Positions 3,734 through 36,688 of a stretch of 64,000 nt of DNA are shown here, in pieces. Source of the stretch: Dehalococcoidia bacterium (GTDB taxonomy: Bacteria; Chloroflexota; Dehalococcoidia; E44-bin15); NCBI GenBank assembly GCA_035528575.1, contig DATKYK010000020.1, positions 62,001-126,000 on the forward strand, given 5' to 3'. Every line of letters begins with the position of its first letter. The stretch's first letter is position 1. A model generated the notes under the pieces. It was given only the letters and a program-made list of their open reading frames with translations. It made no database searches and was not told the DNA's origin. The position numbers and the translations under genes were made by a program.

Positions 3734-4441
3734 CTAATCCTTTCTTATGACCCTGGCATTTGGGTAGGTGTTTTCTAATCCCTTTTTCCATTCGTAGTAG
3801 CGTTTTTCTGAAACATCAAGTTCAAACAGAACAATTATTGGTCCGTCAAAGTGTTGTCCATAACGTATGCATTTATCTGCTATAGTTACTAAATCACTTG
3901 TTCTAGTTGGCCCCTTGACTTCAATCGCAATATTGTCAACAATAATATCTGGTCGTGATGAACCCCTTTGTATTTCTATTTTAGTAGAAGGAAATTGAGC
4001 TATTAACCAACCATGCAAATCAGTTTGATAGGGAAACTCATCTCTATACTTTCTTGCTGGTGGGAATCGCTCAATAGCACCCGTTATTCTATTGATTAGT
4101 TCCTCTGCTTTAGCCTCGTCGTGTGTTCCCCACCGTTCACGTCCAAATCTATCAACGAATTTGACTAGACCCTTTTTCATTTGTTCCTGTTCATAAGCTC
4201 TCTTTTTTGCTAATAATACTTCATTCCTCTTTGCTCTATAAATACGATAAAAAACAAATACAGTTACTAATACAACGATTATGACTCCAGAGACAACAGA
4301 TACTGTTACAATGTTTAGCTTTACCCACTCAATGAATGGTTGTAGTATAAATATCCATGCAAGAATACAGACAAAGATAACCCAAAATAGAATTTTCGCC
4401 CAACGTGGGAAACCTTCATCATCAAAATCGCTATTATCCAT
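3734..4441 (-). CDS. Membrane-anchored PD-(D/E)XK nuclease-like protein
   Basis: Two hydrophobic segments near the N-terminus place the protein in the membrane. A charged coiled stretch follows, then a soluble domain with RPDIIVDNIAIEVKGP. The D-(x)n-E-V-K pattern there is the signature of PD-(D/E)XK restriction-fold nucleases. The ATG at 4441 is 12 bases after AGGAGG; an upstream TTG at 4489 is possible but would put the ribosome site inside the coding region. Related proteins occur as stand-alone restriction-like or Mrr/NERD-like membrane nucleases, substrate unknown. Convergent and head-to-tail neighbours are unrelated, and the AT-rich bases fit the island. Confidence 0.7.
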   Translation of the reverse strand: MDNSDFDDEGFPRWAKILFWVIFVCILAWIFILQPFIEWVKLNIVTVSVVSGVIIVVLVTVFVFYRIYRAKRNEVLLAKKRAYEQEQMKKGLVKFVDRFGRERWGTHDEAKAEELINRITGAIERFPPARKYRDEFPYQTDLHGWLIAQFPSTKIEIQRGSSRPDIIVDNIAIEVKGPTRTSDLVTIADKCIRYGQHFDGPIIVLFELDVSEKRYYEWKKGLENTYPNARVIRKD

Positions 4442-4549
4442 GAATTGCGGCGACCTCCTTATCTCGCCAGCTATATTAACTACCGGCAAACTTCAGGGTT
4501 AAAAGCGGTCATCTGCTTATTTCAGGTTAATGCACTTGTCTTGCTACTG

Positions 4550-4810
4550 TTATCGATATTCTGGAGGTGGTTCTGCCCAGCCAGTGCCTTTACATCTCTT
4601 ACAACGTCTTACATCCGGGACAAATTCCCCTACATCTTTTTTGCCAGCTCCACCACAATCAGGACATTTTCTATAATTACTAGGAACACGGACTATACCG
4701 TGTCTTTTGCATATGGGGCAAGTTGCCTCTGACTCTACGAAATCTCCCTCGTATATTATCCCTGTACCGCCGCAATATCCACAAGGCCTATCTACAATCC
4801 TAGCACCCAC
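4550..4810 (-). CDS. Small DnaJ-type zinc-finger protein (86 aa)
   Basis: The protein consists of four Cys pairs arranged as CGYCGGTG, CPICKRHG, CPDCGGAG and CKRCKGTG. This is the CxxCxGxG arrangement of the DnaJ/HSP40 central zinc domain, here without J or substrate-binding domains. Such stand-alone domains bind two zinc ions and mediate protein contacts; the partner here is unknown. A GTG start at 4810 lies 6 bases after AGGAGG, which decides the start. It lies upstream of the membrane nuclease on the same strand with about 100 bases between them. Confidence 0.75.
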   Translation of the reverse strand: MGARIVDRPCGYCGGTGIIYEGDFVESEATCPICKRHGIVRVPSNYRKCPDCGGAGKKDVGEFVPDVRRCKRCKGTGWAEPPPEYR

Positions 4811-4897
4811 TTAACACCTCCTCTTTTAAATAAGGAATCGCCTTACCGTAATGATTGTTATGACGGAATAGACTATATGCTGATATATCGCTTCGGC

Positions 4898-5056
4898 CTA
4901 GCCTGTGCTGCGCTCCAGTTTCATCTGCTTGTATCCAGCCTTGCAATCAGGGTGACGATTGCAGCCGTTTCCTGAATAGAATCCATCACGACGGGTTTCA
5001 ATCTTCGTATAGCCTATCTTTACCCTTACCTTCTCTTCTTCAATAGTCACTTTCAC
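4898..5056 (-). CDS. Small protein, unknown (52 aa, GTG start)
   Basis: A GTG at 5056, preceded by GGAGGGGCAACA, opens a 52-codon frame. The product starts with a Lys/Glu/Val-rich strand-like segment and has a Cys pair with a His between (GCNRHPDC at 31-38), suggesting a single metal-binding knuckle. It lies between the SBBP gene and the zinc-finger gene on the same strand. No family was recognised. Confidence 0.5.
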   Translation of the reverse strand: MKVTIEEEKVRVKIGYTKIETRRDGFYSGNGCNRHPDCKAGYKQMKLERSTG

Positions 5057-5095
5057 TGTTGCCCCTCCCACTGTGCAGCATGTAAGGCCAGTGCC

Positions 5096-7048
5096 TTAAT
5101 CTCCCCAAATAGCCTCCGTGGCTTCTACTAACGAAGCAATTGGGTCAACCACTAGCTCCCTCACAACAGTCCTCAAAAGGCTGTTTTTCGATATGAAGTC
5201 AGCCACAGGCGGGCTTGCCTGGTAGTACAACTCCACAAGTTGAGAGCCTAATGTGCTTTCAAGCAGCACTTCATCCCTGAACGCTCGGAGAGTGTCGATT
5301 TCCTTGGCTGTCGATGTGCCGTAGGCTGCGGTGGCTATGAAGCAGCCGCCTTCTTCTTCGAGAGGACTGCCGGGACCTCCCTGGTCTATGATCATGCTAT
5401 CGGCAACCCACCAGTCATCCCCTAAACCGCCGTCGGTTAGGGTGATTGTGATTACGTTGTCCCCATCATCGCTGCCCATGACTATCTCATACCAGTGCGG
5501 CGTATGGTTGCCGGGGGTTGGACCGTACTTCCAGTACTGGGTCCCCACGGGGACAGGGTCGGGAAGCGTGATGGTAATATCTACCGACTGGCCTAGTGTC
5601 AGCCCCGTCACATTGAAGGAGAAGAACCCATGGGGGAAGACAATATCTGGCATAGTATCAGCCGCTTCAGGAGGTAGGTCATCTTCAGCTATGGCTGCTA
5701 GGTCTTCGATTGTGCCTGAACTAGACGAGAAGTAGGCGGTGCCTGTGCCAGTGGCTGTATCTACTGAAGTGCTAGGCGTAGGCGTTAGTGTTGGGGTGGG
5801 TGTGGGGCCGCCAGTCTGGACATACTTGATAGTAGCGTAGTCAGCAGAGTAGTAACCGCCAGTACCGACGCCATCGCTCCAGCCGGTGACGTAGACATTT
5901 CCTGAATCATCCACGGCTATGTCATAAGCCTCGTCACCATCGCTTGCGGAGCCGTCGTAACGTGCAACCCACAGCTGGTTGCCATCGCTATCGTACTTTA
6001 CAGTGACGTAGTCGTCGGAGTTGGGGTAGCAAAAGCTCAAGCCGGTGACGTAGACATTTCCTGAGTCATCAACGGCTAGCGCTGTAGCCACGTCTTGACA
6101 GTATCCCGGGCCTTCGTAGCGTGCCTCCCAGAGCTCGTTACCCTCGCTATCGTACTTCACAGTTGCGTAGTCGTCGGAGCTGATGTCGCTATAGCTGAAG
6201 CCAGTGACGTAGACATTTCCTGAGCCGTCCAAGGCCAACGCATAAGGGTAGTTAAACACGCTTCCCGAGCCATTGTAGCGTGCAACCCACAGCTCGTTAC
6301 CCGCGCTATCGTACTTCAAGGTTGCGTAGTCGTCGGAGCTGACGCTATTGCTCGAGCCAGTGACGTAGATATTTCCTGAGCCATCGACGGCTACATCCCG
6401 AGCTTCGTCGTTACTGTTTCCCGGGCCGTCGTAGCGTGCAACCCACAGCTCGTTACCCTCGCTATCGTACTTCACAGTAGCGTAGTCGCCGGAGCTGATG
6501 TCGCTATTGCTCGAGCCGGTGACGTAGACATTTCCTGAATCATCCACGGCTATGTCCCAAGCCTCGTCGTTATCGTTTCCCGGGCCGTCGTAGCGTGCAA
6601 CCCACAGCTCGTTACCCTCGCTATCGTACTTCACAGTTGCGTAATCCTGGGACATGTCGTCACCGTAGCTGTAGCCGGTGACGTACACATTTCCTGAGCT
6701 GTCCACGGCTATGTCCTGAGGTTCCTCATCGTAGCTTGCTGGGCCGTCGTAGCGTGCAACCCACAGCTCGTTACCCTCGCTATCGTACTTCACCGTGACG
6801 TAGTCTTCGCAGGTGTCATCGCCATAGCTGAAGCCAGTGACGTAGACATTTCCTGAGTCATCAACGGCCAGCGCTGTAGCCATGTCATTATCGCTTGCCG
6901 GGCCGTCGTAGCGTGCAACCCAGGCCTCTACAGCCGTTTCATCGGCATTGGCAGCGGAGGCAGGTATTATCATAGTCAATAAAGTCACTAGAACGACCGC
7001 TAGGGCCAAACCATAAAGAGAAGTATATACATGCTTCCTAATCATCAC
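5096..7048 (-). CDS. Secreted seven-repeat SBBP propeller protein with CFI-box C-terminus
   Basis: The 650-residue protein has a signal peptide (about 1-33, ending ASA). Seven near-identical blades of about 53 residues follow, each with WVARYDG, AVDDSGNVYVTG and DYxTVKYDSEGNEL: the SBBP (beta-propeller) repeat, consistent with one seven-bladed propeller. A Thr-Pro linker comes next, then a choice-of-anchor-U-like beta domain (about 420-560), and finally CFIATAAYGT followed by an amphipathic helix, known as the CFI-box C-terminal domain and thought to be a surface sorting signal. The ATG follows AAAGGAGGAAGTG. It is preceded by a structured leader ending in a terminator (7149-7365). Confidence 0.85.
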   Translation of the reverse strand: MMIRKHVYTSLYGLALAVVLVTLLTMIIPASAANADETAVEAWVARYDGPASDNDMATALAVDDSGNVYVTGFSYGDDTCEDYVTVKYDSEGNELWVARYDGPASYDEEPQDIAVDSSGNVYVTGYSYGDDMSQDYATVKYDSEGNELWVARYDGPGNDNDEAWDIAVDDSGNVYVTGSSNSDISSGDYATVKYDSEGNELWVARYDGPGNSNDEARDVAVDGSGNIYVTGSSNSVSSDDYATLKYDSAGNELWVARYNGSGSVFNYPYALALDGSGNVYVTGFSYSDISSDDYATVKYDSEGNELWEARYEGPGYCQDVATALAVDDSGNVYVTGLSFCYPNSDDYVTVKYDSDGNQLWVARYDGSASDGDEAYDIAVDDSGNVYVTGWSDGVGTGGYYSADYATIKYVQTGGPTPTPTLTPTPSTSVDTATGTGTAYFSSSSGTIEDLAAIAEDDLPPEAADTMPDIVFPHGFFSFNVTGLTLGQSVDITITLPDPVPVGTQYWKYGPTPGNHTPHWYEIVMGSDDGDNVITITLTDGGLGDDWWVADSMIIDQGGPGSPLEEEGGCFIATAAYGTSTAKEIDTLRAFRDEVLLESTLGSQLVELYYQASPPVADFISKNSLLRTVVRELVVDPIASLVEATEAIWGD

Positions 7049-20570: not shown

Positions 20571-20835
20571 TCAGGCCACCTTCCTCACTAATCCACCGTT
20601 GCCTGTAGCTAGCACCTGCGCTTGGAATACAATCACAGACATGAGACAATGCACTTTTACCTTGCGAATACCACGAACCCGAATACTATTTAGTTTACGA
20701 TGCCCCTTTAATCGCCCAAACAATCGCTCCACACTAGTACGGCGATTATAAATAAGCTGAAATTCAGGTGTTTCAGGATACGCATCAATTGAATATTCCC
20801 GTTGCAATTTTACTCGTTTTGTAGTACTATTATAT
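20571..20835 (-). pseudogene. Transposase C-terminal remnant
   Basis: The frame ends in a peptide with IYNRRTSVERLFGRLKGHRKL, the Glu-containing end of a DDE transposase (the E of DDE followed by K/R pattern), then NSIRVRGIRKVKVHC and a hydrophobic tail. The upstream catalytic Asp residues are missing, so it is a fragment. The readable frame runs on to 20939 only because it crosses the TPP riboswitch on the other strand. The thiC promoter candidate lies inside the remnant. Confidence 0.75.
20802..20830 (+). promoter_or_regulatory. Candidate sigma70 promoter for the thiC operon
   Basis: TTGCAA at 20802-20807, 17 bases, TACTAT at 20825-20830. The start of transcription would be near 20837, a few bases before the TPP aptamer, which is what a riboswitch leader needs. 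Confidence 0.55.
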
Positions 20836-20840
20836 TGCGC

Positions 20841-20925
20841 CGCGGGGGAGCGTAAGTGCTGAGAAGCCGATATATCGGCTAACCCCTCGAACCTGATCTC
20901 GGTAATGCGAGCGTAGGGAAGCGGG
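20841..20925 (+). promoter_or_regulatory. TPP riboswitch (THI element)
   Basis: The aptamer landmarks are all present and in order: GGGGGAGCG, TGCTGAGA, a variable hairpin (AGCCGATATATCGGCT), AACCCC, the core AACCTGATC, GGTAATGCGAGCGTAGGGA. Thiamine pyrophosphate binding would lower expression of thiC and thi4 downstream, probably through the hairpin at 20935. Confidence 0.95.
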
Positions 20926-20934
20926 TTTATCAAG

Positions 20935-20980
20935 ACCAAGGGTCTGGAACCGAGTACCTAGGCTCTTGGTTATTTTGTTT
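20935..20980 (+). terminator. Riboswitch expression-platform terminator
   Basis: ACCAAG at 20935-20940 pairs with CTTGGT at 20965-20970, enclosing a second GC-containing stem, and TATTTTGTTTT follows. Its position between the TPP aptamer and thiC fits ligand-dependent termination. Confidence 0.65.
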
Positions 20981-24819: not shown

Positions 24820-24879
24820 ACTGTAGCGATCGCCCTTGCCAGAGTCATCATCCTCTCCTCCTTTTTTCTTTTTTCTGGG

Positions 24880-24911
24880 GGTTAGGCTGGCCGACGTCGG
24901 CCAGCCTAACC
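24880..24911. repeat. 32-bp perfect palindrome, copy 1 of 4
   Basis: Centre GGCCGACGTCGGCC with arms GGTTAGGCT and AGCCTAACC, giving a perfect 16+16 palindrome. Other copies: 28624, 35484, 36287. The base pair at one arm position varies between copies but always with its partner. Confidence 0.9.
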
Positions 24912-28555: not shown

Positions 28556-29006
28556 AAGCCTGCCTCCACCTTCAATTCTATTCAAGGCTGAGGGTATGTG
28601 TTTAATAGCCATAAGCCATGAGCGGTTAGGCTGGCCGACGTCGGCCAGCCTAACCCCGGACCTCCACTTTTGGATTCTGCTCATTATTATTTGTTCTTGT
28701 TTCGGGATCTCAGGATTAATACAATGGACTATTATGAAACAGGGGATGCTGAAACAAGTTCAGCATGACAATTATGTCATGGAAGCAGGAACCCGGAGAC
28801 CGATGGGCCTGGATTCCCGCCTGCGCGGGGATGACACGGGCTTTCAGCTTGTCCCGACATATCAGGGCGGGCGGGTAGAAAAAGATGAGTTTCTCCTCAT
28901 TTTCTTCGTTTCTAGACTCTGACGAATGTACCGGACGATTACAGAAAATTGACACTGATTTACCGTTGATGTAGTGTGAACTGAAACCCCTGGGTTAGAG
29001 TGAGAA
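28556..29006. other. Intergenic, 451 bp, repeats
   Basis: The gap holds palindrome copy 2 (28624-28655), a hairpin GCTGAAACAAGTTCAGC near 28750, and a block at about 28780-28850 (GATTCCCGCCTGCGCGGG, then CTTGTCCCGA) that recurs near 41790-41860. No gene was supported. Confidence 0.6.
28624..28655. repeat. 32-bp perfect palindrome, copy 2 of 4
   Basis: The same 32 bases as 24880-24911, flanked on the left by ATAGCCATAAGCCATGAGC, which also precedes the copy at 36287, so the repeated unit is larger than the palindrome. Confidence 0.9.
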
Positions 29007-30125
29007 ATGGGTAAGTCGATTCAACTGGGCAGGATATTTGGCATCCCCTTCCGGCTGGACTATAGCTGGTTTCTCATATTTATCTTTATCACTCTCCTCC
29101 TCTCACTATCCGTCTTCCCCAGTGGCTATCCTGACTGGTCTCCGGTCTCCTACTGGGTGGTGGGCATCGCCACAAGCCTGCTCTTCTTTTCATCGGTTCT
29201 GGCCCATGAGCTGGCTCACTGCCTGGTGGGCAGGAGAATGGGAATCCCGGCAAAGAGCATCACCCTTTTCTTCTTCGGTGGTATTGCCCACATCGGGAAA
29301 GAGGCATCCCGCCCCACCGCTGAGCTCAAAATGGCTATCGCCGGGCCACTATGTAGCCTGGCTCTCGCCGGTATATTCTACGGAATTTCCTGGCTGTGCA
29401 GCGGATTCAGCGAACACCTGACCGCCTTAACCGAGTGGCTTTACCTGATCAACGGAATCTTGGCCGTGTTCAACATGATACCGGGCTTCCCCCTCGATGG
29501 TGGAAGGGTGCTACGCTCCATCATCTGGCTTGTCACCGGAAACTATCTGCGGGCGTCACGTATTGCCACCATAGCGGGGTATGGGGTTTCATATATATTC
29601 ATCCTCGGTGGCATTCTACTTCTTCTCCTGCTGGGCCGGCTCGATGGCCTTTGGTTCATATTCCTCGGCTTTTTCCTCAACAGCACCACCCGCACGACCT
29701 ATCGCCAGGCCACGCTACGCGACTCGCTAAAAGGGTTCACCGCTCAAGACGTGATGACCAAGGATTTCCCCCGTGTTCCTCGCCACATCACCATCCGGGA
29801 ACTGGTAAAAGGGCCACTTCTCACCTCCTCAAGCCAGTGCTACCTGGTTGCCGATGGAGATAGGTTGGCCGGGCTGCTTACCGTGCAACAGGTGAAGGAG
29901 GTGCCCCGGGATTACTGGGATCTCACCACCACCGGACAGGCGATGACCCCTGTGGAAAAAATGCAGATAGTCCAGCCCTCGGATAATGCCCTCGGTCTGC
30001 TGGAGAGAATGGATGAGGAGAACCTTGAGCTGGTAGCTGTGGTCAGGGAGGGCAGGATTATGGGGATTATTCTGCGCGATAACCTGGTTCGCTTTTCCCA
30101 GAGACTCCGTGAGTTCAAGACCTAG
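29007..30125 (+). CDS. Site-2-type zinc metalloprotease (M50) with CBS domains
   Basis: The 372-residue membrane protein has six or so helices. The metal motif HELAH and the third ligand in NMIPGFPLDGGR identify an M50B intramembrane protease of the SpoIVFB/rhomboid-like-free class. Two CBS domains follow (about 245-365: AQDVMTKDFPRVP, GQAMTPVEKM, VVREGRIMGII), which often sense adenine nucleotides. Such enzymes release membrane-held regulators; the substrate is not evident. ATG 29007 is preceded by AGAGTGAGAA. It converges on and overlaps the ADP-ribosylglycohydrolase end by 11 bases. Confidence 0.92.
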   Translation: MGKSIQLGRIFGIPFRLDYSWFLIFIFITLLLSLSVFPSGYPDWSPVSYWVVGIATSLLFFSSVLAHELAHCLVGRRMGIPAKSITLFFFGGIAHIGKEASRPTAELKMAIAGPLCSLALAGIFYGISWLCSGFSEHLTALTEWLYLINGILAVFNMIPGFPLDGGRVLRSIIWLVTGNYLRASRIATIAGYGVSYIFILGGILLLLLLGRLDGLWFIFLGFFLNSTTRTTYRQATLRDSLKGFTAQDVMTKDFPRVPRHITIRELVKGPLLTSSSQCYLVADGDRLAGLLTVQQVKEVPRDYWDLTTTGQAMTPVEKMQIVQPSDNALGLLERMDEENLELVAVVREGRIMGIILRDNLVRFSQRLREFKT

Positions 30126-31032
30126 ACTGCGCCAGCCCATAAATCCCGGTGGCCAGCTCGATTATCTCCAGCCTGCCGTCAAGCGGCTGCTGCCACCTCG
30201 ATGGTATCTGCTCCAGACCGTAGTAGGCACCAGCAAGGGCGCCACATACCGCCCCGATGGTATCGGTATCGCCACCCAGGTTCACCGCAGATACAACGGC
30301 ATCCTCAAATGAGTCGGTATTCATGAAGCACCATATCGCAGCCTGAAGGGTGTCCAGAACGAAGCCCGAGGGCACCAGGTCCTCCATTCTCATCCCCCCG
30401 ACCCCGGCTACCGACTCCCTCACCTCGGGCTCCAGGATCCTGCCCACAAGCCGCTCCAGAAGTGCCTCCCTCCCCTCACAGAGTAGCTGGGCGATGGCCA
30501 GGTTCAGCGCTGCCGCACCCCAGCAAGCCCTGGGGTCCCAATGGGTGATCATGGAGCTATCGATGCTATCCCCTATCAACCGCTCCGCATTATTGGCATT
30601 CAGGAGGGCAATGGGGGCGCACCGCATGATGCTGCCATTACCCGCGGAGAGCCCCCCCAGCCTTTCATGGGCAATCCTCCCTGCTTCCCGTCAGGAGGCG
30701 CCTCCCCCAAGCGCATCAAGGGCGACCCAGGTGGTGCGCCCTATCCCCAAAGCCCCGGCTCTGAACCAGCCCAGAAACTTTTGCGCGACATCCTCGGGGT
30801 TAAAGCGCCCCTTTTCCACAATGCTGCGGGCAATGCAGAGCATCATTGCAGTATCATCGGTCCACTCCCCCGGTCCCAGCCCCAGCCAGCCCCCGCTAAA
30901 AAGATCCCGCACCCTACCGTACCGCCGCGCTATCTCCTCCCGCCCCATCCCCTCCACCGGGGCTCCCAGGGCGTCGCCTACGGCAACCCCCACCAGACAC
31001 CCTCGAAAGCGCTCCAGAGTACAGCTCTCCAA
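30115..31032 (-). pseudogene. ADP-ribosylglycohydrolase with one in-frame TGA
   Basis: Two frames on the same strand and in the same phase are separated only by TGA at 30691-30693. The first (31032-30691) has VGVAVGDALGAPVEGM and GEWTDDTAMMLCIA, the first metal half-site. The second reads on as AHERLGGLSAGNGSIMRCAP and ends with NLGGDTDTIGAVCGALAG, the second half-site. Joined, they give a normal-length (about 305 aa) dinuclear-Mg ADP-ribosyl hydrolase of the DraG/ADPRH family. Without readthrough neither half can be active. A CGA-to-TGA or TGG-to-TGA change, sequencing error, or real readthrough could all explain it. Confidence 0.85.
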
Positions 31033-31438: not shown

Positions 31439-34400
31439 CTACTCTGAAGCCGGTTTCCCTTTCTTGCCCTGGCGGTTATCCCCATTCATGGCACGGCAAA
31501 ACGCCTCCATCAGCTCGGGGTCGAACTGGGTGCCCGAGCACCGTCTGAGCTCCTCAGAAGCCTCCTTGTGAGATACGACTTCTCGATAGGGGCGCGCCGT
31601 GGTCATGGTGTCATAGGCATCGGCCACGCTTATAATCCTGGCAGCTAAGGGTATCCCCTCGCCCTTAAGTCCATCGGGGTATCCCGTCCCGTCGTACCAC
31701 TCGTGGTGGTGCAGGATTACCGGTACCAGCGCCCCCAATCCCCTAACGTAGCCGACTATCCTCGCCCCTTCAGAGGAGTGCTTCTTAATGGCTACCCACT
31801 CCTCCGCAGTCAGTGCACCCGGCTTGGTCAGGATTGCGTCGGGGACACCCACCTTGCCCACATCGTGGAGGAGGGAGGCGGCGTACAGGTTCGCCAGTTC
31901 CTTTTCCGACAGCCCTGTGGCTCTGCCTATCTTTTGTGCTATATCGGCGACCCTCCCTGAGTGGCCGTATGTATAGGGGTCTCTAGCATCAACCGTGGCC
32001 GCCAGGGCGTAGACCTGGTCCAGCGTTGCCGTTCCCAGGATCTCCGGCGGGATCGCGCTCAGTGAAGCCACCAGTATATCTCTGCCTCCCCCCTCCTTCT
32101 TGGCGTAGTAGAGAGCTGAATCGGCCAGGAATACCAGGCCATCTGCCTTATCAGCATTCTCGGGGAACTGGGCAATGCCGGTGCTGAACCCGAGTGGAGT
32201 TTCCAGTGGGGCATACTGCGCTTCAACCAGTTTAAGCCATCTCGCTCTGATACGGTCCATGATCTGCCTGGCCCTGTTGGCATCCGTCTCCGGCAGGATG
32301 ATAATGAACTCATCGCCGCCGTAGCGGAAAGCAGTATCGCTCTTGCGCAATGATGACTCGACGGTTTGGGCAAAGGATTGTAGCACGCCATCGCCGCTGG
32401 CGTGGCCCATCCTGTCATTGTATTCCTTGAACCCGTCAAGGTCGAGCATTACCAGGCAGAAGGAGCGGCCTTTACGCAGCGTGCGGTACATCTCAGGCTC
32501 AAGCATATGGTAGAAGTGGCGGCGGTTATAGAGCCCGGTCAGCTCATCGGTTAGCGATAGCTCTCTCGTTCTCTGGAGTAGCAGGGCGTTCTCTATGCCC
32601 ACCGCTACCTCGTTGCCTATGCCCACGAGCAGTTCTACCTCATCATCGCTGAACTGGCGCTCACGTCGGTCGGCGAGCAACAACGCCCCTATCGGCATGT
32701 CCCTGGACCGGATGGGCACAGTGATGTGCGCTCGCATCCCTTCCTTTTCTATTGTCGCTGCTATCCGGGTGGCATTGGCCCCGGTGGACAAGCTGAACGG
32801 TGTCAAGACAGGCTCCTGCCATTCCAGGACACGCTTGATTTCCTTCTCCTTCAGCTTTATAAGTCCAATGCTGCCAACAGCATCCTCTGAAACCCCGATG
32901 TGGGCCTTTAGGGTAAATTCGCCAGATTGCAGGTCTAAAAGGTAGATGCCGCCAATATCGGTCTGCATGACATCGAGAACAGTTGCCAGGGACTCATTTA
33001 AGAGCTCGTCCAGTTCGAGGGAACGGTTCACTGCCTGGGCAACATCACGAAGGGCCTCCACCCGCCGGGCAGCGCTCTCGCGCTCCTCCTCCGCCTGCTT
33101 GCGCTCGGTGATGTCACGGTAGTTGATGACTACACCATTTACTCGACTATCTTCGAGAAGATTCCTTCCTATACATTCCATCCAATGCCATGAGCCGTTT
33201 TTGTGCCTGCTACGAATTACCACGGTTGCAGCCTCACCAGGATTGTCCACGACGAATTGATACGCTTTTATAGCTTCTGATACGTCGTCTGGGTGAATCG
33301 TTTCAAAGGCCGGCTTTCCAACCCAATCATCCGGCCCATATCCCAAGATCCGTTCAACGGAGGGGCTTTCGTAAAGTACGTTTCCGTCGGCACCAATGAT
33401 GGTGATGCCATCTGAGGACTTCTCGGTAAGCGTTCGGAAACGTTCCGCGCTTTCCCGAAGTGCCTCCTCCGCCCGCTTGCGCTCGGTGATATCATAAGAA
33501 ACGTTCTGAACAGAGATAACTTTACCACTTGTATCTTTGACAGGTTGAATATTCGAGTAGAACCATCTATTGCCGGTAGGAAGTGGAACCTCATCCTCAA
33601 ATTCAAGCCGTACCCCTGACTCGAAAATACGGCGAGCCCTCTCTACGTAAACATCAGCCGTGTCAGGGAAGAAATCGTAGAGTGACTTTCCGACAACATC
33701 TTCAGGAATTGAACCAAGATTCTTGGCTCCCGTAACATTTATCAATAAAATACGACCATTGGAGTCATATGCTGTTAATGGCTCGATAAGATTATCGATT
33801 AGCAATCGGTACTTCTCCTCGCTATCCTTCAGCTCCTCCTCAGCCCGCTTGCGCTCGGTGATGTCTGTGACAACTTCAATTGCTTTAAGGACCCTTCCAT
33901 CCGGGTCTGGCAGTGGTGCCGAAACCACTTCATAATATCTTCCGTTGACACCTAGCAATTCAACTCTCTCTATCTGTTTGCTCTTTATTGCTTCTATCAT
34001 GGGACAGGGATCACAAGGCTTTTTCAATCCCATATAAGCCTCATAGCACAATCGTCCCATTAAGTCACCGAATCTCTGTTGCAGAGTTTCGTTTTGGAAC
34101 AGGACTTTGTAATCAATTCCAACAATGTCAATGCCAATTTCTATAGTGGCCAGGCCATCCATAAGAGACTGCAACCTGTCTCTTTCTGAACGTATGGTTT
34201 GCTCCGCCCGCTTGCGCTCGGTGATGTCCACAAAGGAAGCGACCATGCCTTTAGGGTTGCCTTCCCCGTCAGTTAGCAGGCTGGCAGAAATCTGTGCATT
34301 GAAAGTTGAGTCATCTGCCTTCCGCGCTGTAAGTTCGCCAAACCAGTCCCTCTTTTCCAGCAAGGCCTTCTGAATCTCAGCAGCTTGCTCCTCCATCTGC

Positions 34401-35458
34401 CAGAATTGAATCGCGGGTCTGCCCAGAATCTCCTTGTCGCCGACATATCCCCACATCTGTAGGAAAGATGGATTGACATATGTCAGATTCCCTTCTATGT
34501 CACTGAGTGCAATAGCACTTAGCGAGGATTCGATGGCATCATCTTTTGTTTTTAATTCTTCCTCCGCCCGCTTGCGCTCGGTGATGTCTTCATAGGTACC
34601 GAGGACACCTATGACATTGCCCTCCGTGTCTCGCAGCGGCACCTTGTTGGTCCTGGCCCATGCTTGGGTGTCGTCAGCTCGGAGATAAGGCTCGATAATG
34701 TCGTATTCGGGAATACCTGATTCCATAACCCTCCTATCGTACTCCAGAAACGAATCCGCCTGCTCTTTTTCCCATGGAAGATCGAAGTCGCTCTTTCCGA
34801 CAACCTCCTCTGAAGACTTCAGTCCTACCACCTCCAGCCAGGTGCGGTTGCCGCCGAGGTAAATTGAATCACGATCTTTCCAGAAGACTGCAGCAGGGAT
34901 TGAGTCCAATACAGTCTGCAACATGTACCGTGAATTACGCAGCTCTTCCTCCGCCCGCTTGCGCTCGGCAACTTCTCTCTCCAGCTGAGCCACCTTCTTA
35001 TCTAGCATGGTGATAAGGCGTTTACTATATTCGGCAAAATAGAGGGATGGCTCAAGAGGGGCAACCCCGGGAGGCGATGGGAGACCAGACTTAGCTTTTT
35101 CATATATTTCAGATAGTATCTGGACAAAGGCGTCAGGCCTAGCAGCCCTGCGGATGAAAGCGTTAGCCCCCAGGCTCCGGGCAAACTGCTCATCCTCGTC
35201 AGAGGTGTAGGTAGCTGTGTAGAATATGAATGGGATATGCCGTAGTTGCTTATCCCGCTTCCACAAGTGGCATAGCTGAAAACCATCCATGCTAGGCATC
35301 AGAATATCGGCTACAAGGATGTCCGGCTTTTCCTTAAAGGCTTGCTCCAATGCCTCCGCACCGTTGGCCACAGCGATTACCTCATGACCATAGACCTGGA
35401 GCTGTTTCACTAATAAATTGCGGCTGTCTTCATTACCTTCGGCTACTAACACCTTCAT
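31439..35458 (-). CDS. REC-PAS(x5)-GAF-GGDEF-HD-GYP c-di-GMP signalling protein
   Basis: The roughly 1340-residue protein begins with a receiver domain (phospho-acceptor Asp in LVADILMPSMDG, about residue 51). Five PAS domains follow (about 175-790), each introduced by the coiled linker ITERKRAEEELK, then a GAF domain (about 810-960), a diguanylate cyclase with intact RYGGDEF, and an HD-GYP phosphodiesterase (LLHDVGKVGVPD, HHHEWYDGTGYP). It could both make and break c-di-GMP depending on signals. The start is ATG 35458, 5 bases after AGGTGG; a GTG 9 bases earlier overlaps that site. A c-di-GMP-I riboswitch candidate lies about 300 bases upstream on the same strand. Confidence 0.93.
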   Translation of the reverse strand: MKVLVAEGNEDSRNLLVKQLQVYGHEVIAVANGAEALEQAFKEKPDILVADILMPSMDGFQLCHLWKRDKQLRHIPFIFYTATYTSDEDEQFARSLGANAFIRRAARPDAFVQILSEIYEKAKSGLPSPPGVAPLEPSLYFAEYSKRLITMLDKKVAQLEREVAERKRAEEELRNSRYMLQTVLDSIPAAVFWKDRDSIYLGGNRTWLEVVGLKSSEEVVGKSDFDLPWEKEQADSFLEYDRRVMESGIPEYDIIEPYLRADDTQAWARTNKVPLRDTEGNVIGVLGTYEDITERKRAEEELKTKDDAIESSLSAIALSDIEGNLTYVNPSFLQMWGYVGDKEILGRPAIQFWQMEEQAAEIQKALLEKRDWFGELTARKADDSTFNAQISASLLTDGEGNPKGMVASFVDITERKRAEQTIRSERDRLQSLMDGLATIEIGIDIVGIDYKVLFQNETLQQRFGDLMGRLCYEAYMGLKKPCDPCPMIEAIKSKQIERVELLGVNGRYYEVVSAPLPDPDGRVLKAIEVVTDITERKRAEEELKDSEEKYRLLIDNLIEPLTAYDSNGRILLINVTGAKNLGSIPEDVVGKSLYDFFPDTADVYVERARRIFESGVRLEFEDEVPLPTGNRWFYSNIQPVKDTSGKVISVQNVSYDITERKRAEEALRESAERFRTLTEKSSDGITIIGADGNVLYESPSVERILGYGPDDWVGKPAFETIHPDDVSEAIKAYQFVVDNPGEAATVVIRSRHKNGSWHWMECIGRNLLEDSRVNGVVINYRDITERKQAEEERESAARRVEALRDVAQAVNRSLELDELLNESLATVLDVMQTDIGGIYLLDLQSGEFTLKAHIGVSEDAVGSIGLIKLKEKEIKRVLEWQEPVLTPFSLSTGANATRIAATIEKEGMRAHITVPIRSRDMPIGALLLADRRERQFSDDEVELLVGIGNEVAVGIENALLLQRTRELSLTDELTGLYNRRHFYHMLEPEMYRTLRKGRSFCLVMLDLDGFKEYNDRMGHASGDGVLQSFAQTVESSLRKSDTAFRYGGDEFIIILPETDANRARQIMDRIRARWLKLVEAQYAPLETPLGFSTGIAQFPENADKADGLVFLADSALYYAKKEGGGRDILVASLSAIPPEILGTATLDQVYALAATVDARDPYTYGHSGRVADIAQKIGRATGLSEKELANLYAASLLHDVGKVGVPDAILTKPGALTAEEWVAIKKHSSEGARIVGYVRGLGALVPVILHHHEWYDGTGYPDGLKGEGIPLAARIISVADAYDTMTTARPYREVVSHKEASEELRRCSGTQFDPELMEAFCRAMNGDNRQGKKGKPASE

Positions 35459-35483
35459 AACTACCACCTCATTTCATGGAGCG

Positions 35484-35515
35484 GTTAGTCTGGCCGACGT
35501 CGGCCAGACTAACCC
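35484..35515. repeat. 32-bp perfect palindrome, copy 3 of 4 (compensated variant)
   Basis: One arm reads TTAGTCTGGCC and the other GGCCAGACTAA, where copies 1 and 2 have TTAGGCTGG/CCAGCCTAA. The changed base is matched by its partner, so the palindrome stays perfect. It lies 26 bases upstream of the REC-PAS start. Confidence 0.9.
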
Positions 35516-35576
35516 CGAACCCCCGCTTTTGGATTTTGCTCATTATTTGTTCTAGGGAAGTACGAGCGACAGGCTT

Positions 35577-35693
35577 CTACAATTGCTCTCTGTGTTTTCC
35601 CAGTTCCTCCTCCGCCTGCTTGCGTTGGGCTTTCCCCTTCCATAACTCGGCGACCCGCCTACGCAGCTCTTTGGTCTCAGTCTATTTCTTCAT
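35577..35693 (-). pseudogene. Remnant of a sensor-protein N-terminus
   Basis: From ATG 35693 the frame reads MKK, a stop, then TETKELRRRVAELWKGKAQR and KQAEEELGKHREQL before a second stop. That coiled linker is typical of the N-terminus of PAS sensor kinases and cyclases. Everything after it is gone. It sits directly downstream of a c-di-GMP-I aptamer and terminator, so it was probably the riboswitch-controlled gene. Confidence 0.7.
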
Positions 35694-35711
35694 AAGCGTG
35701 CCCTAACAAGC

Positions 35712-35742
35712 AAAAAGCCTTCCTCCTACGAGAAAGGCTTTA
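35712..35742 (-). terminator. Terminator of the c-di-GMP-I riboswitch
   Basis: On the minus strand AAAGCCTTTCTC, loop GTAG, GAGGAAGGCTTTTT forms a strong stem followed by T residues, directly 3' of the aptamer. Confidence 0.8.
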
Positions 35743-35754
35743 ACCTTCTCAATC

Positions 35755-35842
35755 TTCGGTAGCCCGGCAGTCCTGGTCCGGTCTTCTAACATTGGTCCCA
35801 TGTCTTTGCACCCCGCGAATTCTCGCGGTTTGCCTTTCCCGG
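35755..35842 (-). promoter_or_regulatory. Cyclic di-GMP-I (GEMM) riboswitch candidate
   Basis: On the minus strand the conserved blocks are present in order: GGCAAACC (35834-35827), a GC hairpin (CCGCGA GAAT TCGCGG), GTGCAAAG (35811-35804), CATGGGACC, then a stem closed by GCCGGGCTACCG (35768-35757). In the known class the two base contacts to c-di-GMP lie in the GGCAAACC and GGGxTACCG blocks. The loop GAAT is not a standard GNRA, a small departure. The downstream terminator suggests an off/on switch of transcription. Confidence 0.8.
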
Positions 35843-36025
35843 AGCCTTATACTTATTTGTTAATCTGGGCTATTCGCTATTGAGCCTCCTTTTGGGAAAA
35901 AATACTACTTATTATGCTTTTTGTCAAATCTGCGAACGTGCCCAGCACATTGGTAATACATCACCGCTAGCCCATTTCTGTGTGAAGCCTCAGTTTTCCC
36001 GTCTATTAATAGATCATTGCATAGA

Positions 36026-36100
36026 GCGCCTCGGGCTAAACGCTCACATTGACGATAACATAAGATGCGCCTTTTGTCTGTCGGGAAAGTATGTATTTTT
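36026..36100 (-). promoter_or_regulatory. Repeated leader element, second copy
   Basis: These 75 bases match 7291-7365 (about 85 percent by eye), with similarity reaching to 35984. The hairpin GAGCG ... CGCTC is kept. It lies about 180 bases upstream of the c-di-GMP-I aptamer in the same transcript direction. Its function is unknown. Confidence 0.5.
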
Positions 36101-36118: not shown

Positions 36119-36688
36119 CAAAATTGTGATTTTTTTTGTGGGGAGGGTTTGATATTCTGGCCGCCCGCCGGCTTTCCCCCCCCACCTGCCTTGAGATGTG
36201 TTTAATATCGGGTAGCCTTGAGCATCCAATCCAGGCGTTGTTGGAACCGATGCTCCAACCTACCCAAATAGCCATAAGCCATGAGCGGGTAGGCTGGCCG
36301 ACGTCGGCCAGCCTACCCGGCGGATCGAGGCCACGCGGCGGATATTGGGTCTCAATGTTGTTCTGTCAGGAGACGTGGGGATTGCCACGTCCCCCGACCC
36401 CAATCTATCGGGGGACACTTCGGCCCAAACCGTCCGATAAATCGGACTCTCGCAAGGCGGAGGGGTCCTCGCAATGACTGAGAACATAATTGTATTTGCT
36501 TATCAATAATAGAATTTATGAATTAATGTTGAAGAATCACCGTTCATCTGGTCGACCACAGGCGCTAGAAATATCAGCCTCGTCGGTTTATAATAATCGC
36601 TGGCGATATTTTGTTCACAGCGCTCCGTTATAAAAAACCTGGCTCTAGTTTCAACGGAGATTTTTAAAAGTGGGTTAAGGGTGAAAAA
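36119..36688. other. Intergenic, 570 bp
   Basis: Contains palindrome copy 4 (36287-36318) and hairpin-rich repeat sequence (CCCCGACCCCAATCTATCGG, then GGACACTTCGGCCC). 36490-36660 is AT-rich and probably holds the promoter of the peptidase gene, but no clear -35/-10 pair was found. A 294-codon minus-strand frame starting at 37387 and ending here is a shadow of the peptidase gene. Confidence 0.55.
36287..36318. repeat. 32-bp perfect palindrome, copy 4 of 4 (compensated variant)
   Basis: Outer arms read GGGTAGGCT and AGCCTACCC, against GGTTAGGCT/AGCCTAACC in copies 1 and 2. Again both arms changed together. It is preceded by ATAGCCATAAGCCATGAGC as in copy 2. Confidence 0.9.

Follow-up and report, generated by a model that had tools for sequence, protein, structure and literature searches.

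We studied a c-di-GMP-I riboswitch on the minus strand of a 64-kb stretch of DNA (the window) together with the gene downstream of it, which codes for a putative bifunctional c-di-GMP enzyme. The RNA belongs to an established riboswitch class, and its aptamer-terminator element would be the 5' leader of the enzyme gene. Our preferred explanation, held with somewhat more confidence than doubt, is that this leader is an OFF switch feeding back on its own enzyme, that switch and enzyme are ancestral partners, and that the N-terminus of the enzyme has been replaced.

The aptamer and its expression platform

The covariance search called for by the initial annotation gave a match to Rfam RF01051 at positions 35844-35755 (minus strand), covering the full model (1-87 of 87) with 49.9 bits against a curated gathering score of 35 and an E-value of 9.4e-7 (64 kb against 4,227 families). 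It was the only c-di-GMP-I aptamer that Rfam detected in the window, where a TPP riboswitch (73.8 bits) was also present at 20834-20937 of the positive strand. The predicted fold of the riboswitch region beat 200 of 200 shuffled sequences (z = -3.5). Five c-di-GMP-I matches, four of them over the cutoff, occurred in the source genome (G000), and 31 of 60 related genomes had at least one (E up to 0.001). Scores across the family ranged from 32 to 88 bits, and the window aptamer lay in the lower part of this range, many relatives scoring 80 bits or more. One relative (locus L060, G013:C72) presented two aptamers on the same strand, at 2310-2399 and 2872-2964, about 470 nt apart.

Upstream of the aptamer, a motif scan found the promoter-like sequence TTGACA-17-TATTTT (10/12) at 35899-35927 (minus strand), the only site at the 10/12 threshold in 35400-36100. 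Downstream, at 35714-35741 of the same strand, there is a 12-bp intrinsic terminator with loop GUAG and a T-rich tail; both riboswitch and terminator, which had been claimed by inspection of the sequence, are thus real. The strand CGGGAAAGGC on the 5' side of the aptamer (35832-35841, minus strand) is complementary to the 5' arm of the terminator, GCCUUUCUCG, with a duplex energy of -17.4 kcal/mol that none of 500 shuffles equalled. Pairing of the aptamer 5' strand with the terminator 5' arm is a usual OFF-switch design, and the presence here of a terminator and of an antiterminator that takes its strand from the aptamer, so that only one of the two can form, predicts a switch of the transcriptional OFF type. 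Most relatives had the same pairing, weak in some of them, and in the duplex comparison it was absent from loci L053 and L036. Since the terminator state was favoured at equilibrium by about 9 kcal/mol (-64.2 vs -55.2 kcal/mol), and the antiterminator state was not recovered by equilibrium folding alone, antitermination would be kinetic, taking place during transcription. Four switches (L041, L042, L051 and L054, in G002, G003, G008 and G010) showed a different platform by eye, with a terminator arm complementary to the aptamer 3' strand, and preceded a sensor kinase (GAF-HisKA_3 in G002) and a response regulator.

A point against control by readthrough is the length of untranslated leader, about 255 nt, that would separate the terminator from the enzyme start and be exposed to Rho. 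A loose scan of this segment revealed no promoter of at least 9/12 and no other terminator; this includes the interval between 35577 and 35458, where, according to the initial annotation, a promoter would make the enzyme independent of the switch. These results make control of the enzyme by readthrough from the switch plausible. The segment also contains a dispersed 75-bp repeat (35479-35553, minus strand) with a 32-nt perfect palindrome, GGTTAGTCTGGCCGACGTCGGCCAGACTAACC, whose interpretation as a second intrinsic terminator we discarded because it had no T tail. The repeat core, CTGGCCGACGTCGGCCAG, had 11 exact copies in the genome, unevenly spread over the contigs (9 of the 11 on contig C20). 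Copies of the repeat in the window were located at 24878-24911, 28620-28697, 35479-35553 and 36283-36318, and the core recurred in G001, G009 and G013, with a single occurrence in G008, genus g2 genomes included.

Conservation within the aptamer was uneven. The equivalents of A18, G20 and A47 of Vibrio cholerae Vc2, which are ligand contacts, were kept according to the residue table of the alignment, and the equivalent of C92 was kept by reading of the Rfam alignment. The supporting motifs were altered: neither a GNRA tetraloop docked in a P3 receptor nor the C44-G83 tertiary pair was present, the tetraloop being GAAU instead of GAAA (last base A to U), the receptor CCAAU, P3 positions 42 and 49 changed from C to A and from U to A, and the C44 equivalent a U. 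At four conserved positions (the last tetraloop base, C44 and the two in P3) the window aptamer stood alone against 22 usable aligned relatives (23 sequences; row L028 of alignment A1 was excluded from the counts). Tetraloop, receptor and the connecting G-C pair hold P2 against P3 (PMC4759541). Membership in RF01051 stands because these motifs stabilise the fold and do not define the ligand, and because variant relatives exist, some of them also being without one or other of the tertiary motifs. The four unique changes do put the affinity in doubt, and the aptamer may be weakened or dead, with poor or no binding of c-di-GMP.

The main rival to our explanation starts from this point: the leader would be a relic with a decayed, unresponsive aptamer, and the enzyme would be expressed either through partial readthrough at a constitutive level or from a promoter that is weak and not sigma-70-like. 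We regard it as possible, at a clearly lower probability than the preferred explanation. It draws on the fact that the unique changes hit the tetraloop-receptor contact and the C44-G83 pair, and on the low score among family copies. The stub adjoining the switch is certainly dead (see below), and C. difficile, where five c-di-GMP-I switches have no detectable downstream gene, has switches of this kind that are judged nonfunctional (PMC6200980); against decay, the score is still 15 bits over the Rfam cutoff, and the ligand-contact residues, P2, terminator, antiterminator pairing and promoter-like site are all kept in the window. Another switch of the same genome (L036, minus strand of G000:C15:1-4000) reads AACAAAACC where GGCAAACC is found elsewhere, i.e., G20 and G21 are changed to A. 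It has a weak terminator of its own and precedes an intact PAS-GAF-GGDEF paralogue; its change could represent an altered ligand preference or decay.

The enzyme gene and the dead stub

The enzyme gene occupies 31439-35458 of the minus strand. Its start, ATG 35458, follows the Shine-Dalgarno sequence GAGGTGG with a 5-nt spacer (read from the sequence) and gives a protein of 1,339 aa; an alternative in-frame GTG at 35467, which would give 1,342 aa, sits inside the Shine-Dalgarno sequence. Pfam assigned to the product a receiver (REC), five PAS stretches, a GAF domain, GGDEF (2e-43) and HD/HD_5 (HD_5, 5e-36), so that the REC-PAS-GGDEF-HD-GYP order first proposed for this gene was borne out except for the GAF domain, which had been omitted. 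Reading of the sequence showed an intact GGDEF motif, an intact RxxD I-site (RKSD) and intact HD and HHHEWYDGTGYP motifs. With intact catalytic motifs in both domains, the enzyme is predicted to both make and degrade c-di-GMP. For the front of the protein, a search of 84,980 genomes with the receiver plus first linker gave no ortholog, the matches being distant or confined to part of the receiver, and the search for the receiver within the family gave at most 40% identity. Receivers are carried as well by the homologues G009:C55 and G011:C62, and these are not closely related to that of the window. Past the enzyme gene, at 30115-31032 (minus strand), two adjacent ORFs looked by eye like the parts of one ADP-ribosylglycohydrolase gene that a stop or frameshift has divided.

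A G at Vc2 position 20 marks the c-di-GMP form of the aptamer, and the Asp of GGDEF is Ser in cGAMP-making enzymes. The window aptamer has G at the equivalent position and the window enzyme keeps the Asp (read from the sequence); these features and the OFF type of the alternative pairing make it improbable that we are dealing with an ON switch or with an aptamer for another cyclic dinucleotide such as 3',3'-cGAMP. In favour of such a reading, among the solved structures, where relatives of both GGDEF and HD-GYP were found, the best HD-GYP relative (5z7c) is a 3',3'-cGAMP phosphodiesterase. It has precedents in the Geobacter cGAMP switches that exist among GEMM-I RNAs (PMC4418906) and in C. difficile Cdi-1-1, which is positively regulated (PMC6200980).

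Between the terminator and the repeat there is a dead stub of 39 codons beginning MKK*TETKE, from ATG 35693 to TAG 35577 (35577-35693, minus strand). It reads MKK*TETKELRRRVAELWKGKAQRKQAEEELGKHREQL*, with an in-frame TAG at codon 4, where both an intact paralogue on contig C15 of the same genome and the G001 homologue (see below) have Gln. Aligned with the start of the C15 paralogue (MKKQTEIKEHLVNELAEMRQRIAEL...) the stub scored 89, the best of 300 shuffles scoring 57, and with the start of the G001 protein (MKRQTKTKEHL...) it scored 80; both alignments showed one clean 8-codon gap. The ribosome site GGGAGGT of G001 appeared by eye weakened to GGG in the window. The stub had been described as a PAS-type coiled linker with stops, and it is indeed an N-terminal coil and dead, but it has no PAS residues. 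In view of the G001 comparison below, it is best read as an N-terminus severed from the same enzyme gene lineage and not as the relic of a separate target.

Related loci and history of the pairing

The most informative comparison was with locus G001:C186, from genus g2 of the same family. There, a switch of 85.7 bits under a promoter of the same type (TTGACA-17-TATAAA, 11/12) is followed, after about 69 nt, by an intact ORF of about 414 aa, a coil-GGDEF-HD-GYP protein starting MKRQTKTKE that is 72% identical over 374 aa to the catalytic part of the window enzyme. Two DNA blocks were collinear: positions 3683-3873 of L182 (G001) with window 35851-35668 (75.4%), comprising aptamer, terminator and first codons, and positions 3967-5154 with window 32564-31377 (78.9%), comprising the catalytic half and continuing past the stop codon into the 3' flank. 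The spacing between both blocks is 93 nt in G001 vs 3,103 nt in the window. The loci thus share promoter type, a homologous aptamer, terminator, start context, catalytic domains and collinear DNA; G001 differs in its higher-scoring aptamer and in its single intact ORF, with no REC, PAS or GAF. Because of the collinearity at both ends and the 72% identity, the window enzyme therefore carries the catalytic half that belongs to the leader.

Other members of the family point in the same direction. At seven family loci the first long same-strand gene after a switch was a GGDEF(-HD-GYP) gene: the window, G000:C15, G001:C186, G005:C55, G011:C73, G006:C215 and G012:C29, of which C15 and G011:C73 stop at contig edges before HD-GYP. 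A rough estimate, with some 16 genes of this kind among 18.7 Mb, put the chance of this pairing at about 1e-15, a figure that shows strong enrichment only and is not a true probability, since the loci are related. No switch was present beside G011:C62 (a close relative), G012:C51 or G005:C81 within the sequence stretch examined. The C15 paralogue presents a switch, then coil, PAS, GAF and the first part of GGDEF, where its contig ends, and G005 presents a switch, then PAS, GAF, GGDEF and HD-GYP; these arrangements suggest, as far as the order of events can be inferred from them, that PAS and GAF were present in the ancestral gene and that G001 lost both. A tree built from 11 GGDEF-HD-GYP proteins placed the window enzyme with G001 and G009:C55 at moderate support (84/74). 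Presence of the switch was not clustered in this tree, in which the association was not shown to follow enzyme phylogeny; the tree therefore speaks neither for nor against a single origin of the pairing.

The partnership of switch and catalytic half is probably ancestral, and the feedback is probably ancestral too. The initial annotation had instead proposed that the original target decayed and stranded the switch, which may now control the enzyme by readthrough; the stranding is contradicted by the G001 leader and start, fused to a homologous enzyme within collinear DNA, and a new, accidental origin of the feedback is at odds with the several family members that, like G001, keep the switch-enzyme pair. 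We thus consider it the least probable reading that the switch first served an unrelated sensor gene, since decayed, and now reads by accident into an independent c-di-GMP enzyme: the coil MKKQ-TKE also starts a histidine kinase behind another switch of the same genome (L035), which makes the stub's own continuation uncertain, and the receiver front is absent from intact switch-led relatives, but the fusion in G001 and the succession of domains behind the switch in the C15 paralogue both oppose it.

HD-GYP C-terminus fragments were located just upstream of switches in G009 (L173, 2530-2616) and G013 (L181, 2919-3005), and the C20:35k switch has a GAF/HD-GYP fragment (G000:C20:37109-37357) some 2 kb upstream; the enzyme family seems to decay repeatedly beside its switches. 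Outside this family but within the class, the first genes behind the switches at L183, L192, L199, L203, L209 and L210 also included GGDEF or HD-GYP genes, so that the feedback design may recur more widely.

Proposed mechanism and comparison with known systems

From the homology, collinearity and complementarity described above we infer the following course of transcription, ligand binding and switching for the preferred OFF-switch leader. Transcription would start near 35892 and yield the c-di-GMP-I aptamer. Without ligand, CGGGAAAGGC would pair with the terminator 5' arm and the polymerase would pass the stub and the repeat into the enzyme gene; with c-di-GMP bound, the strand would be held in the aptamer, the terminator would form and the enzyme would not be made. 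The feedback would act on the enzyme responsible for the level of the ligand, and its sign would depend on the catalytic balance: a predominant cyclase activity would make it damping, a predominant phosphodiesterase activity reinforcing. As to the history of the locus, the original N-terminus would have been severed, leaving the dead stub, and the lost part would have been replaced by a sensory front that begins with the receiver and has a ribosome site of its own, with the repeat in between.

Most metabolite riboswitches feed back on their own pathway. We incline, if not strongly, to the view that c-di-GMP switches off the GGDEF-HD-GYP enzyme in a long-conserved autoregulatory circuit present family-wide, and that here the circuit survived the loss of the N-terminus and its replacement by a phospho-receiver. 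A family with such recurrent control at several loci would be a direct test case for RNA-level homeostasis of a second messenger, and the locus would show a riboswitch staying with its gene while the protein N-terminus was broken and replaced. A c-di-GMP metabolic enzyme is a rare target for c-di-GMP-I switches, according to a 2019 review (PMC6366702), and we found no account of such a switch on GGDEF-HD-GYP genes in the open-licence papers that we searched.

The window RNA shares with known c-di-GMP-I (GEMM-I) riboswitches, such as V. cholerae Vc2 and C. difficile Cd1, the whole-model match, the ligand contacts and the P2 and P3 arms. Its platform is an OFF-type terminator like those of the C. 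difficile class I switches, which are mostly OFF (PMC6200980; PMC6366702). Unlike the Vc2/Cd1 type, it has a degenerate tetraloop and receptor, U in place of C44, and a c-di-GMP metabolic enzyme as its target. This enzyme, in turn, resembles hybrid GGDEF-HD-GYP response regulators in that it joins the two catalytic domains of c-di-GMP metabolism to sensory domains of the REC and PAS/GAF types.
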